41,289 nucleotides of DNA from a virus. Below are positions 33,676 through 39,495 of the stretch, one piece after another. The stretch is from IMG/VR virus record IMGVR_UViG_3300037262_000047, positions 1 through 41,289 of that record; one strand, given 5' to 3'. Position 1 is the first letter of the stretch, and each line of letters starts with the position of its first letter. Made by a program: the position numbers and the translations under genes. Under the pieces are notes generated by a model. It was not told the DNA's origin. It made no database searches and saw nothing but the letters and a program-made list of their open reading frames with translations.

Positions 33676-33833
33676 GCGAAGAGCGCGTGACGAAGGTTTG
33701 CTGCGATTGCCTCATGGACCCTGCGACCAGCGTCCAGGGCCGCTGTGAGGGCTGCCAGAGAGACTGGAACATTCGCCTGGCGCGGAAGTTGGCCCGCACG
33801 CCGAAGCAGGGGAAGGCGGTGAGCGCGAAATGA
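33672..33833 (+). CDS. Zinc-ribbon mini-protein
   Basis: 53 residues from ATG 33672 (ATGA overlap): VCCDCLMDPATSVQGRCEGC gives a four-Cys ribbon, followed by a basic helix (WNIRLARKLARTPKQGK). It ends in ATGA with the HNH gene. The ribbon plus basic helix suggests nucleic-acid binding. Too short for many gene finders. Confidence 0.68.
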   Translation: MSEERVTKVCCDCLMDPATSVQGRCEGCQRDWNIRLARKLARTPKQGKAVSAK

Positions 33834-34378
33834 CTCAGCGCATCAAGGCGAGCATCAAGGGCGGTGCGCTCTTCAAGGCCGAGACGCGCGTCGACTTTTT
33901 GACGGTGACAGCCTCACGCTACGGCTCGATGCGGGATCGGCTCAAGCGCAAGAAGCTGCCGCCGCCGCCATTCACGCTTGAGCAGTTCCGCGCGGACGTG
34001 CTGGGCGTCATGGGCGGCAAGAAAGACGGCGCGGTTCAATGCCGCTACTGCCTCGGCTGGTTCACCATTGGGCAGCTCGCGGTGGATCATGCGACGCCTC
34101 TCAGCAGGGGTGGCAGTTTGGCGCTGGAGAACCTGGATTACCCATGCCAACCCTGCAATGATCGCAAGGGAAGCCTCACGCTGGATGAATACAAGGCGCT
34201 GCTGGCGTTCCTCGGCACACTGCACCCGACCGCGCGCCAGGACGTGCTCAAGCGCCTGGAGGGCCACAACAAGCTCGCCGCGGGCCTGCGCAGATCGATC
34301 GTGCTGGCGAAGGCGAGCGAGCGCAAGGTACCGGCGCTGAAGCAGCCGGCGCTCGATTACGAACTGAGGAAATTTTGA
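33830..34378 (+). CDS. HNH endonuclease
   Basis: A 182-residue protein. CRYC (71-74) and CQPC (106-109) hold the structural zinc; the catalytic part is VDHATPLSRGGSLALENLDY with Asp86-His87 and Asn101, then Asn110. The C-terminal half is helical. The domain is of the HNH type seen in phage and restriction endonucleases. Unlike the two homing-type enzymes it is woven into the operon by ATGA upstream and TTGA overlap with the methyltransferase downstream, so it may be a resident recombination or host-DNA nuclease. Confidence 0.8.
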   Translation: MTQRIKASIKGGALFKAETRVDFLTVTASRYGSMRDRLKRKKLPPPPFTLEQFRADVLGVMGGKKDGAVQCRYCLGWFTIGQLAVDHATPLSRGGSLALENLDYPCQPCNDRKGSLTLDEYKALLAFLGTLHPTARQDVLKRLEGHNKLAAGLRRSIVLAKASERKVPALKQPALDYELRKF

Positions 34379-35949
34379 GCGCCTGGTACAACGAGATCGA
34401 TCCTTACAAGGCCGAGGTCATCCGCCAGGCCATCGCAGATGGCGCCATCGCGCCGGGGGTAGTGGATGAGCGCAGCATCGCAGACATCGACGCAGCCGAG
34501 CTTGTGGGATTCACCCAGTGCCACTTCTTCGCCGGCGGCGGCTTTTGGTCTCTCGCCCTCAGAAACGCCGGGTGGCCTGACTCCCGGCCCTGCTGGACCG
34601 GAAGCTGCCCGTGCCCTTCCTTTAGCGCAGCGGGCAAAGGGGAAGGGTTTGCAGACCCTCGTCACCTCTGGGCTTTCTGGGATTCCCTCATCGGCAAGTG
34701 CAAACCTCCAGTCGTCTTTGGAGAACAAGTTAGCGCAGCGATTGGACACGGCTGGCTCGACCTTGTTTGTTCAGACATGGAAGCGAAAGGCTACGCCATT
34801 GCGGCGGCGGTACTGGGAGCACACAGCGTCGGGGCGCCGCACATCCGGCAGCGCCTTTACTTCGTGGCGCACACCCACTGCGCTCACGGAGAACTCGCAG
34901 CGTGGCAGAGGGCAGGATCCAGCGGTCCGCAAAGCTGGCGGGCACACGATCAACTTGCAAGACGAAGTCACGCTGGCGACCTGGGCGACGCCCAAGGCGG
35001 AGGACGGAGAGTCGGCAGGGATGAGGCACTCGCGTGGGACGGCGGACACGCTGACGGCGCAGACAAGCCTGGCGGGTTGGGCATCTCCGAAGACGCGCGA
35101 CTTCAAGAGCGCCAGCGCGAGCCCGGAATTCCTGGCAGAGCAGATGGCACACCCGCGCGGGAAGGATCTGAGCGTGGAAGTGACCCTGGCGGGTTGGGCC
35201 ACGCCGAATTGCCCGGCGCCGCACGACTCGGACGAAACGGCGGGGAGGGCGAGACCGAGAGAGGGCTACGGCCTGGATCTGCCGATTCAGGCGAACCTCG
35301 CCGGCTGGCCCAGCCCCTGCACCCCGAACGGAGGCCGCTCGATGTCAACGGAAGCGATGGATGCGACGGGAAAGACAGCCGACGGCAAGAAGCACACGGC
35401 GAGCTTGGAACATGCGGTGAAGTTCGCCGGCTGGCCGACGCCGATGGCCGGGACGCCAGCGCAGAAGGGCTACAACGAAGCGGGCAACACGGACAGCAGC
35501 CGGAAGACGGTGGACCTCGTATCGTTCCCTGCCCCGACGAGCCTGGACGCTGGCATGTCCTCGACGGATGGGATTGCTGCACAACCAGTGACGGAGTGCG
35601 TGACATTCTCGGCATGGCCCACTCCGAGTACGGAGGATTACAAGCGGGACGAGTGGTCGGAGATAGCACTCAGGGAAGCGGTGGACCTCAAGACGGCGGC
35701 GCCGGCGACGAGCCAGAGGCTCAGGAGTTTCGCCCAATTGTCCGGCCCAGTCCGCTTAACGGCTTCTGGCGAGATGCTGACTGGATCGGATGCCGCGATG
35801 GAAAGTTCCGGCCAGTTAAACCCGGAGCATTCCCTCTGGCTGCAGGCTATCCCGGCCGTGTGGGCCTCCTACGGCTTGCGGGCGACGCAATCAATGTCGC
35901 AACGGCGGTCGCGTTCGTCGAAGCCTACCTCGAAACGGAGCGTGGCTGA
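34375..35949 (+). CDS. DNA cytosine-5 methyltransferase
   Basis: A 524-residue protein starting at TTG 34375 (GAGGA upstream; start overlaps the HNH stop). Motif I is HFFAGGGFWSLALRNAGW (50-67), motif IV SCPCPSFSAAGKGEG with nucleophile Cys80, motif VI FGEQV (Glu117) in place of ENV, motif VIII IRQRLYFVAH (157-166), and the C-terminal motif X region GDAINVATAVAFVEAYL. Between about 170 and 440 is a Gly/Asp/Arg-rich target-recognition/insert region with repeated GLGxA or RLADA-like units. These units are what the overlapping frame's W-P-T-P repeats look like in this frame. Likely role: protect phage DNA from host restriction. Confidence 0.87.
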   Translation: MSAWYNEIDPYKAEVIRQAIADGAIAPGVVDERSIADIDAAELVGFTQCHFFAGGGFWSLALRNAGWPDSRPCWTGSCPCPSFSAAGKGEGFADPRHLWAFWDSLIGKCKPPVVFGEQVSAAIGHGWLDLVCSDMEAKGYAIAAAVLGAHSVGAPHIRQRLYFVAHTHCAHGELAAWQRAGSSGPQSWRAHDQLARRSHAGDLGDAQGGGRRVGRDEALAWDGGHADGADKPGGLGISEDARLQERQREPGIPGRADGTPAREGSERGSDPGGLGHAELPGAARLGRNGGEGETERGLRPGSADSGEPRRLAQPLHPERRPLDVNGSDGCDGKDSRRQEAHGELGTCGEVRRLADADGRDASAEGLQRSGQHGQQPEDGGPRIVPCPDEPGRWHVLDGWDCCTTSDGVRDILGMAHSEYGGLQAGRVVGDSTQGSGGPQDGGAGDEPEAQEFRPIVRPSPLNGFWRDADWIGCRDGKFRPVKPGAFPLAAGYPGRVGLLRLAGDAINVATAVAFVEAYLETERG

Positions 35950-35953
35950 ATGA
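34466..35953 (+). CDS. W-[APR]-[ST]-P repeat protein overlapping the methyltransferase gene (+1 frame)
   Basis: A 495-codon frame inside the methyltransferase gene. It has a coherent N-terminal domain (about 60-135: TSGLSGIPSSASANLQSSLE, LDTAGSTLFVQTWKRKATPL, ASGRRTSGSA) and then SWRTP, TWATP, GWASP, GWATP, GWPSP, GWPTP and AWPTP units at residues 134, 173, 205, 244, 281, 323 and 384. The C-terminus (PVRLTASGEMLTGSDAAMES, SGQLNPEHSLWLQAIPAVW) resembles the end of a protein I recognise as recurring next to or over phage cytosine methyltransferases. Its stop forms ATGA with the next gene's start. Function unknown. Confidence 0.72.
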   Translation: MSAASQTSTQPSLWDSPSATSSPAAAFGLSPSETPGGLTPGPAGPEAARALPLAQRAKGKGLQTLVTSGLSGIPSSASANLQSSLENKLAQRLDTAGSTLFVQTWKRKATPLRRRYWEHTASGRRTSGSAFTSWRTPTALTENSQRGRGQDPAVRKAGGHTINLQDEVTLATWATPKAEDGESAGMRHSRGTADTLTAQTSLAGWASPKTRDFKSASASPEFLAEQMAHPRGKDLSVEVTLAGWATPNCPAPHDSDETAGRARPREGYGLDLPIQANLAGWPSPCTPNGGRSMSTEAMDATGKTADGKKHTASLEHAVKFAGWPTPMAGTPAQKGYNEAGNTDSSRKTVDLVSFPAPTSLDAGMSSTDGIAAQPVTECVTFSAWPTPSTEDYKRDEWSEIALREAVDLKTAAPATSQRLRSFAQLSGPVRLTASGEMLTGSDAAMESSGQLNPEHSLWLQAIPAVWASYGLRATQSMSQRRSRSSKPTSKRSVAE

Positions 35954-36126
35954 CGCTGGTCGAGCTCCTCGCCGAAGCCAACACCCACACCGGGCTCCCC
36001 ATGCCGGACATCGCCGCCTTGATCCGGATCAACTGGCCAGGGCATTTTCAATACACCCCAACGCAGGCCGCGCTTCTGGTCGACCTGATCAACCGCAAAA
36101 AGGAGAACTCGCATGCAAACGATTAA
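35950..36126 (+). CDS. Small helical protein
   Basis: 58 residues from ATG 35950, in ATGA overlap with the repeat-protein stop. The N-terminal half LVELLAEANTHTGLPMPDIA, ALIRINWPGHFQ and a C-terminal helix PTQAALLVDLINRKKE look like a compact folded protein. It contains the AAAAGGAG ribosome site of the next gene near its end and overlaps it by 14 bases. Function unknown. Confidence 0.65.
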   Translation: MTLVELLAEANTHTGLPMPDIAALIRINWPGHFQYTPTQAALLVDLINRKKENSHAND

Positions 36127-37636: not shown

Positions 37637-37651
37637 GAGTTTAGGGAATTG

Positions 37652-38389
37652 ATGAAGCCGTACTATAACCACGAAGGCATCACGATCTATCACGGCGACT
37701 GCCGGGATGTGCTCCCACAACTCGAGGTTGTGGATCTAATCCTCACCGATCCGCAGTATGGGATCTCGCAGGCTGGCGTCGTGAACGATAGAAGCGCGCA
37801 GGGCCATGGTACGCGAAACTTCGATTTCTTTGCTAACGACACCCCAGGAGAAGCCAACGCGCTCGCTATGGAGGCATGGCAAGCGATTCTTCCGCTGTGC
37901 TCCGAAGCCGCGAGCGCCTATTGGTGGGTCGGGCATTACACGTTCGGGAAGTTGGTGGATGCCTATGAAGAGAATGGCTGGAAAACGCGCTTCCTGGTAT
38001 GGTCTAAACTCTGCCCGGCCCCTACACTCCCAGGGTCCGGCTGGCCTTCGGCGGCAGAACTCTGTGTTTACGCCTTTAGGCCGGGGCGAACATGGAACCA
38101 TGACGGCACCAATTGCCCGCGCTCCAACGTGTTCATTGCCGACTCCTATAGGCACGGTATCCCAGGCAAAAACGGGCACCCCACGCAGAAGCCATTTGCG
38201 GTGGTCAATCCGCTGATCCTCGCGTCGTGCCCAACTCGAGGGACGGTACTTGACCCGTTCATGGGCTCTGGTACTACGCTAGAATCCGCCAAAAAACTGG
38301 GGCGCAACGCAATCGGCATCGAAATTGAGGAAAAGTACTGTGAGATAGCGGCCAAGAGATTGAGCCAGGAGGTATTGTGTTTTGAATGA
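37652..38389 (+). CDS. Beta-class DNA methyltransferase (N4-cytosine or N6-adenine)
   Basis: 245 residues from ATG 37652 (AGGG upstream; a TTG one codon earlier is an alternative). Motif IV, LILTDPQYGISQ (29-40), precedes motif I, VLDPFMGSGTTLESAKKLGR (199-218), the order that defines the beta class; HPTQKP (176-181) is also present. Motif IV reads DPQY instead of the usual DPPY, so activity should be tested. Likely function is protection from host restriction. Local base composition is somewhat richer in AT than the neighbouring genes, suggesting separate acquisition. The stop overlaps the next mini-frame as ATGA. Confidence 0.87.
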   Translation: MKPYYNHEGITIYHGDCRDVLPQLEVVDLILTDPQYGISQAGVVNDRSAQGHGTRNFDFFANDTPGEANALAMEAWQAILPLCSEAASAYWWVGHYTFGKLVDAYEENGWKTRFLVWSKLCPAPTLPGSGWPSAAELCVYAFRPGRTWNHDGTNCPRSNVFIADSYRHGIPGKNGHPTQKPFAVVNPLILASCPTRGTVLDPFMGSGTTLESAKKLGRNAIGIEIEEKYCEIAAKRLSQEVLCFE

Positions 38390-38660: not shown

Positions 38661-38695
38661 GCCCGTTCGCTGGCATGAAGCCGAGGTTCGGATGA
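38657..38695 (+). CDS. Possible 12-residue micro-protein
   Basis: MSPFAGMKPRFG, starting in ATGA with the previous stop and ending in ATGA with the D12 methyltransferase start. Same relay arrangement as the frames at 28372 and 38386. Confidence 0.3.
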   Translation: MSPFAGMKPRFG

Positions 38696-39495
38696 CCGTC
38701 AAGCGCCCGGTCCTGCGCTACCACGGCGGCAAGTGGAGACTCGCTCCTTGGCTCATCAAACAGATGCCAGAGCACCTGACCTACGTCGAGCCATTCGGTG
38801 GAGCTGCCTCGGTCCTCATGCGCAAAGAGCGGTCGAAGGGCGAAGTGTATAACGATCTCGATGGGAACATAGTGAATCTGTTTAGGATTTTGCGCGAGCC
38901 GGAATCGGCCGCCGAGTTGGAGAGGCTCCTGCGCCTTACGCCTTTCAGCAGAGAGGAATTCCGAGCTAGCTATGAACCACCCGTGAGCGACATCGATGCC
39001 GCGTGGAAAGCGATCGTCAGATCTTTTATGGGATTCTCGACAGACGCTGTGACCCGAGGAGTGAAGTGCGGATTTAGATCGCGCCGAACCAAGGGAATCT
39101 TGCCTTCGTTAGAGTGGTCGACATTCGCGGACGCATTGCCTAGCTTCACTCAGCGCCTCCAGGGAGTCGTGATCGAATGCCGCAATGCCTTCCAGATCAT
39201 CGCCCATTACGATTCTGAAGATACCTTCTTTCTTGTTGATCCCCCCTACGTCGAGAGCACTCGCGGATCTGGCATGGGAAGCGGCAAACATGGGTATCAG
39301 CACGAGCTCAGCGACAATGACCATCGGATGCTCGGTCTCCTCTTGAGGGGGATCAAAGGCAAGGTGATGATCTGCGGATACTGGTCGAGGCTCTATGAAG
39401 AGCTTTATAGGGACTGGCGATACGCCGATGCGAAGTGCTACGCGAACGGAGCTCACGAACGCCATGAGCGCATCTGGATGAATTACCCAGCCTGA
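38692..39495 (+). CDS. D12-class DNA adenine methyltransferase (Dam-like)
   Basis: A 267-residue protein. Motif X/I are RYHGGKWRLAPWL (9-21) and YVEPFGGAASVLM (31-43); motif IV is FFLVDPPYVEST (179-190). This order (I before IV, with an N-terminal YxGGK) is the alpha-class D12 pattern. It methylates adenine N6, target unknown. It is the last rightward gene and overlaps the convergent lysozyme gene by 13 bases. Together with the other two methyltransferases it gives the phage three modification activities. Confidence 0.92.
   Translation: MTVKRPVLRYHGGKWRLAPWLIKQMPEHLTYVEPFGGAASVLMRKERSKGEVYNDLDGNIVNLFRILREPESAAELERLLRLTPFSREEFRASYEPPVSDIDAAWKAIVRSFMGFSTDAVTRGVKCGFRSRRTKGILPSLEWSTFADALPSFTQRLQGVVIECRNAFQIIAHYDSEDTFFLVDPPYVESTRGSGMGSGKHGYQHELSDNDHRMLGLLLRGIKGKVMICGYWSRLYEELYRDWRYADAKCYANGAHERHERIWMNYPA

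Follow-up and report, generated by a model that had tools for sequence, protein, structure and literature searches.

A single stretch of viral DNA very probably encodes both subunits of a heterodimeric C5-cytosine methyltransferase, in which a polypeptide read in the +1 frame (termed beta) would provide target recognition and motif IX to a catalytic polypeptide (termed alpha). This assignment is drawn from sequence comparisons and predicted structures. The window refers to the whole stretch of DNA analysed, the 41,289-base IMG/VR virus record IMGVR_UViG_3300037262_000047 (positions 1–41,289). The frame of alpha is termed the methyltransferase (MT) frame, and the locus displays the following features:

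34375–35949, + strand: alpha, predicted C5-cytosine methyltransferase catalytic polypeptide (MT frame, TTG start, 524 amino acids)
34466–35953, + strand: beta, nested +1-frame protein, putative target-recognition and motif IX subunit (ATG start, 495 amino acids)
34929–35750, + strand: variable insert, under selection in the +1 frame; a disordered open linker in the alpha reading
35950–36126, + strand: next open reading frame (58 amino acids, no family), with an ATGA overlap with the beta stop codon

A sequence-only reading of the window had described the two open frames of 524 and 495 codons and the ATGA formed by the +1 stop codon with the next gene, starting at 35950; both are confirmed, and the conserved-looking C-terminal end that it saw in the +1 protein (LNPEHSLWL) is supported. 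The beta ATG at 34466 is preceded in the window sequence by GGGGG at a plausible spacing. Alpha is directly preceded by an HNH endonuclease gene (33830–34378, + strand), and the stop codon of that gene overlaps the alpha TTG start.

Dual coding in the alpha/beta overlap

The overlap in the window is genuine dual coding and not a shadow open reading frame. When codons were permuted with the MT protein preserved, 4.8 stop codons were expected in the +1 frame, with a probability of ~7e-4 of finding none. The reciprocal permutation, which preserves the +1 protein, gave ~12 expected stops in the MT frame and a probability below 3e-4 of finding none. The third frame of the window has 15 stop codons.

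The alternative is that base composition keeps the +1 frame open and that its conservation is a by-product of the methyltransferase. Long +1 open reading frames form more easily in GC-rich DNA, the +1 conservation lies partly over conserved MT motifs, and the 4.8 stops expected at the single locus are not a very large number. Stop codon counts over homologous loci argue strongly against this. Two separate collections of homologues were made, one queried with the MT protein or its profile and the other with the +1 protein or its profile; for the bacterial loci, one genome per species was searched. For the viral count, 104 distinct loci were chosen by the MT frame alone and were read between fixed anchors, motif I to motif X; this count replaces an earlier per-locus test of the longest open stretch, which was biased. 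Over 28,515 body codons, 9 stops were counted in the +1 frame, as opposed to 1,255 in the third. Four of the nine are found in one locus with an endonuclease insertion (L027), and most of the others are near the 3′ end. In 73 loci from bacterial genomes, 5 stops in the +1 frame compare with 906 in the third. Homologues with frequent +1 stops and an intact MT frame, which the sequence-only reading had named as evidence that would speak against it, were thus not encountered. Its proposals that two genes share one stretch of DNA, and that similar proteins recur over phage cytosine methyltransferases, are both borne out by these homologues.

Stop codons return outside the gene: over the 104 loci, their density in the +1 frame is 6.2 per 100 codons immediately ahead of the +1 start and 3.5 per 100 codons past motif X. 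Ordinary methyltransferases are at the null expectation, as seven C5-methyltransferases with motif IX in frame, taken from some of the same genomes, have 103 +1 stops where 98 were expected. The +1 frame is also open at 46–50% GC in phages NINP13076, Bas77, SBP and Rani (Paenibacillus) and in a Vibrio phage. In a first survey, the MT profile was detected in every locus and the +1 profile in all but one, a distant mycobacteriophage.

The MT frame is kept open as well. Unfiltered, it has 16 stops in 28,515 codons, 12 of which are in the insertion-bearing L027. Across the insert, +1-synonymous shuffles predict 389 MT-frame stops in 168 loci that had been pre-filtered for zero MT stops.

Codon-position conservation across homologous loci, a check that the sequence-only reading had proposed, was computed on pairs of loci 90–99.5% identical. 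Divergence at MT third positions is 0.278 in the first 27 codons, which are MT-only, versus 0.114 in the DNA common to both genes, over the shared N-domain, and is roughly halved there. In the variable insert, MT codon positions 1, 2 and 3 diverge by 0.337, 0.112 and 0.074, with non-overlapping bootstrap intervals. In the insert, all 115 pairs diverge more at position 1 than at position 3; in the N-domain, none of 164 pairs does so. GC3 in the window insert likewise follows the +1 frame (0.80 vs 0.585). As MT position 1 is position 3 of the +1 frame, the insert evolves as a +1-frame gene in which MT third positions are the slowest. What the insert encodes is the +1 protein; of the MT frame, only its openness is maintained there. 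A shadow frame cannot shift the wobble to MT position 1, which refutes an origin of the +1 frame by composition; its probability is negligible. The stop avoidance and the halved third-position divergence uphold the earlier claim that both frames are constrained. The co-evolution proposed with it stands in part: there is constraint on both frames, but it is asymmetric, with the insert selected in the +1 frame and the MT frame a permissive open linker.

The beta start codon is also under selection. The usual beta ATG is built on an MT-frame Asp codon and requires its GAT form; at the commoner start position the GAT:GAC ratio is 109:29, compared with 1188:2067 at other Asp codons (odds ratio 6.5, P 3e-23). 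The window beta ATG uses the other start position (VDERS).

Several loci have damaged or interrupted copies. Nonsense codons in the alpha frame with beta intact are found in L161, L185, L196 and L204 (also in L088 and L089), that of L161 being inside motif IV; the first four weigh against the two-subunit assignment, and such copies would represent inactive or degraded enzymes, or sequence errors. The copy in Pseudomonas phage PACT201 (L082:1486-2540) displays several frameshifts, and both frames are broken. HNH-endonuclease-like open reading frames are inserted within the alpha/beta overlap in L027, at motif VIII, and in L044, in the motif IX coding region. These insertions suggest that homing elements target the dual-coding locus.

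Distribution of the methyltransferase motifs between two reading frames

The sequence-only reading had assigned all main methyltransferase motifs to the MT frame. This has to be corrected, as the MT frame carries motifs I, IV, VI, VIII and X, and motif IX is in the +1 frame. The positions are as follows, with invariance taken from an alignment of 38 alpha sequences:

34525–34542, + strand: alpha motif I (FFAGGG); F52 and G54 invariant
34609–34635, + strand: alpha motif IV (PCPSFSAAG, with the catalytic Cys); P79 and C80 invariant
34720–34731, + strand: alpha motif VI (GEQV, at the ENV position); G116, E117 and Q118 invariant
34849–34866, + strand: alpha motif VIII (QRLYFV); R158 and R160 invariant
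35878–35916, + strand: alpha motif X (AGDAINVATAVAF), a confident C-terminal helix
34466–34864, + strand: beta N-terminal domain, a helix and a beta-hairpin (GSTLFVQTWKRKATP), overlapping alpha motifs I–VIII
35816–35863, + strand: beta motif IX (LNPEHSLWLQAIPAVW), located with hhalign and phrog_1008

Alpha matches phrog_363 (E 4e-61) and the Pfam family PF00145 (E 8e-14), the latter only over positions 66–163 of the 324-position profile. With this match, the catalytic PC, an ENV-type motif VI and the arginines of motif VIII, alpha is recognisable as a C5-methyltransferase. The Pfam match ends at profile position 163, and a canonical motif IX is absent from the MT frame. In the predicted structure of alpha, the core (residues 1–170) has a pLDDT of ~92 and the motif X helix ~93, and the insert has ~30–40. 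A Foldseek search with this model matches HhaI and HaeIII. The N-terminus of alpha (34393–34500) displays a motif II/III-like stretch (EIDPY...VDERSI) ahead of motif I, which suggests a permuted motif order in this subfamily.

Beta matches two PHROGs that bear the label 'DNA methyltransferase', phrog_31772 (E 3e-39) and phrog_1008 (E 8e-20), and matched no Pfam or NCBIfam model; an HNH domain was not detected. Its C-terminus, with the consensus GQLNPAHSRWLMGLPPEW across homologues, aligns with the in-frame motif IX (PRVSAEFYEWLMGLPRGWVT) of a single-chain enzyme, the methyltransferase of Mycobacterium phage Graduation (hhalign E 1.3e-5), and with gp53 of Gordonia phage Upyo (hhalign E 6e-8), in short alignments of 17–20 columns. 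PHROG 1008 forms a bridge between these proteins, as it matches the +1 protein of K1ind3 (E 1e-64), the 'internal gene' of Paenibacillus phage Rani (E 2e-74), Upyo gp53 (E 6e-57) and residues 187–273 of the Graduation enzyme, which span motifs IX–X (E 5e-30).

The Gordonia phages Upyo and GordTnk2 display a related arrangement. The catalytic open reading frame extends no further than motif VIII; LPTP units and motifs IX and X are in the +1 frame. The second half is thus in the +1 frame as in the window; motif X, however, is in alpha in the window. The Gordonia loci are annotated as two methylases or are partly unannotated (Upyo, L328:1291-2560; GordTnk2, L330:1288-2161). In Lactococcus phage 4268 (L329:985-1542), the methyltransferase also ends after motif VIII, at 38% GC, and the +1 frame is largely open. 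W-P-T-P units were not seen in that +1 frame, which could be another out-of-frame second half.

The motif IX alignment, the PHROG 1008 bridge and the split Gordonia genes point to beta as the recognition and motif IX half of a C5-methyltransferase. It was previously proposed that the +1 product regulates or imitates the methyltransferase, or is an anti-defence protein. A separate factor of this kind would fit a beta model that matches no known fold, as well as an N-terminal domain with no identified homologue outside the beta family. In the AlphaFold model of a compact beta homologue (overall pLDDT 60, pTM 0.29), a helix (76–95) and a hairpin (101–123) are confident; Foldseek of this model against the PDB gave no meaningful match, and profile searches of the PDB, run for beta and for the motif IX region, returned no chain up to E 10. 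The sequence relationships speak for a subunit instead. Beta contains the motif IX that is missing from the MT frame and is homologous to the C-terminal half of single-chain methyltransferases, and among 160 loci detected with the beta profile it is never found without alpha (80 of 80 viral and 80 of 80 genome loci carry alpha). A separate regulator, mimic or anti-defence factor is therefore improbable, and the evidence favours a motif IX and recognition subunit of the same enzyme.

A frameshift product was also considered, in which a +1 shift of the ribosome after motif VIII forms one chain with motifs I–VIII, the array of repeat units described below and motif IX. The frame relation is constant, and single-chain relatives of the Graduation type carry motif IX in the alpha frame, such that fusion and split forms interconvert. 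This is nevertheless highly improbable, since the beta N-terminal domain over motifs I–VIII is stop-free and constrained and its start codon is selected, and since alpha keeps motif X, for which its frame has to be open across the insert.

In the heterodimer, alpha would supply the AdoMet-binding and catalytic domain (motifs I–VIII) and motif X, with no folded small domain. Beta would be translated from its own start and would supply motif IX and target recognition, and the two chains would assemble into one enzyme. The overlap would persist because the alpha frame has to continue to motif X across DNA that beta requires for its array.

The W-x-[ST]-P array

Beta has an array of repeat units, placed after the methyltransferase core and ahead of the C-terminal motif:

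34865–35737, + strand: beta W-x-[ST]-P array, seven units, candidate target-recognition modules

The seven units noticed in the sequence-only reading are found at beta amino acids 134, 173, 205, 244, 281, 323 and 384, with a spacing of 32–61 amino acids; the first bases of their W codons are 34865, 34982, 35078, 35195, 35306, 35432 and 35615. One further W-x-[ST]-P is near the N-terminus (W14), and a degenerate FPAP is present at amino acid 354.

In 237 beta proteins there are 697 units, with 0–8 per protein, a median length of 36 residues and a consensus of approximately WPTPTAxDxxGG...LPxA. At a 70% identity threshold they form 301 types. A common type can be found at many positions and beside many different neighbours; the commonest has 22 different next units and 17 different preceding units. 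Two of the window units, 2 and 5, are of types with ten members, which other loci also carry. Similar units are absent within a protein: no pair with at least 50% identity was found, versus 11.3 expected (2,000 shuffles, minimum 2).

These patterns suggest that the W-P-T-P units are target-recognition modules that can be exchanged. Such non-redundant cassettes would be expected of tandem recognition domains, for which the multispecific methyltransferases of Bacillus phages (PMC8936443) are a precedent. A considerable minority share of the probability falls to another possibility, that the subunit assignment is right but the units are spacers or structural repeats and not separate recognition modules. 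Arrays do vary from no units to eight, and the lack of redundancy might also be explained by recombination between similar units, which alone could delete duplicates. The strong differences within a single array, the presence of the same types in different phages and contexts, and the Bacillus phage precedent are evidence against spacers.

If the units are recognition modules, the seven in the window would enable one enzyme to methylate several sequences, and methylation set by the array would probably protect phage DNA from host restriction. We lean slightly towards a broader hypothesis, whereby phages widely use a two-subunit cytosine methyltransferase with its reader in the +1 frame and with cassettes of ~36 residues, one target each, that are reshuffled but not duplicated, the catalytic frame simply being held open across them. 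Recognition cassettes of this type would constitute a natural library of 301 types (at 70% identity) for reading or re-targeting cytosine methylation, and could help predict the restriction systems that a phage evades.

Related enzymes, annotation and genomic context

The closest parallel among known systems is M.EcoHK31I (YGGCCR), whose small gene, reportedly described by Lee, Kam and Shaw in 1995, is said to lie inside the large gene in another frame. M.EcoHK31I has been described as naturally split (PMC3439449), with motifs I–VIII and X in one polypeptide and motif IX in the other (PMC3404938). The window locus resembles it, as far as published descriptions go, in that the large polypeptide has motifs I–VIII and X and lacks IX, which is in the nested beta. 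The two also differ. The recognition domain of M.EcoHK31I is predicted in the larger subunit (PMC3404938), whereas the variable region in the window is selected in beta and disordered in alpha. Unlike M.EcoHK31I, beta has an array of up to eight exchangeable units, and hundreds of loci in phages and prophages carry it. A search of E. coli genomes for EcoHK31I returned only chromosomal 'DNA cytosine methyltransferase' annotations.

M.AquI (CYCGRG) also has its catalytic half in one polypeptide and recognition and motif IX in another, but its second polypeptide carries motif X as well (PMC3404938); in the window, motif X is in alpha (35878–35916) and beta is almost fully nested. The SPR, phi3T and H2 enzymes of Bacillus phages have several recognition domains in tandem, by which one enzyme reads several target sequences (PMC8936443). 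The W-x-[ST]-P units are modular, reshuffled and non-redundant, and are candidates for such domains. However, the Bacillus phage enzymes are single chains in a single frame, and the array here is in a separate protein and in another frame.

Another type of second protein encoded in a different frame of a phage methylase gene is the out-of-frame HNH endonuclease of the ShiLan type (PMC11855218). In contrast to this homing insertion, the window beta spans most of the methyltransferase, lacks HNH and is widely conserved. An HNH insertion as an explanation of beta was rejected, as the +1 protein has neither an HNH domain nor any other Pfam domain.

One or both frames have already been annotated in several phages: K1ind3 (ORF30 and ORF29, with ORF29 'Mte8-like'), PhiXhv-18 (both frames), PMG1 (YP_005098260), the Komagataeibacter phage phiKX1 and the Paenibacillus phage Rani (gp50/gp51, 'g50 Internal gene'). 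Database labels for the beta family are 'DNA methyltransferase' or hypothetical, and the subunit relation was in no record examined. Among the papers searched on overlapping genes in phage methyltransferases, none describes the pair as two subunits. The enzyme would be of the known EcoHK31I type; its array-bearing phage form is new and widespread. The present analysis suggests that a family annotated as 'DNA methyltransferase' or 'hypothetical' represents one heterodimer with a nested subunit, in which case gene callers that keep one frame lose half of the enzyme.

Long same-strand overlaps are usually doubted. The window case is unusually clear because the wobble position switches frame within one gene. 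The locus also makes testable a situation in which two unrelated sequences share one DNA, one of them informative and the other merely open.

Plasmid loci were checked for a restriction-modification context; their neighbourhoods are phage- or prophage-like or are remnants, and no restriction gene is annotated in them. In the window, two further DNA methyltransferases are encoded downstream on the + strand, one of PF01555 (N6/N4 type; 37649–38389) and one of PF02086 (D12 class; 38692–39495). The phage thus has three methyltransferases within ~5 kb, a cluster that fits a modification island.
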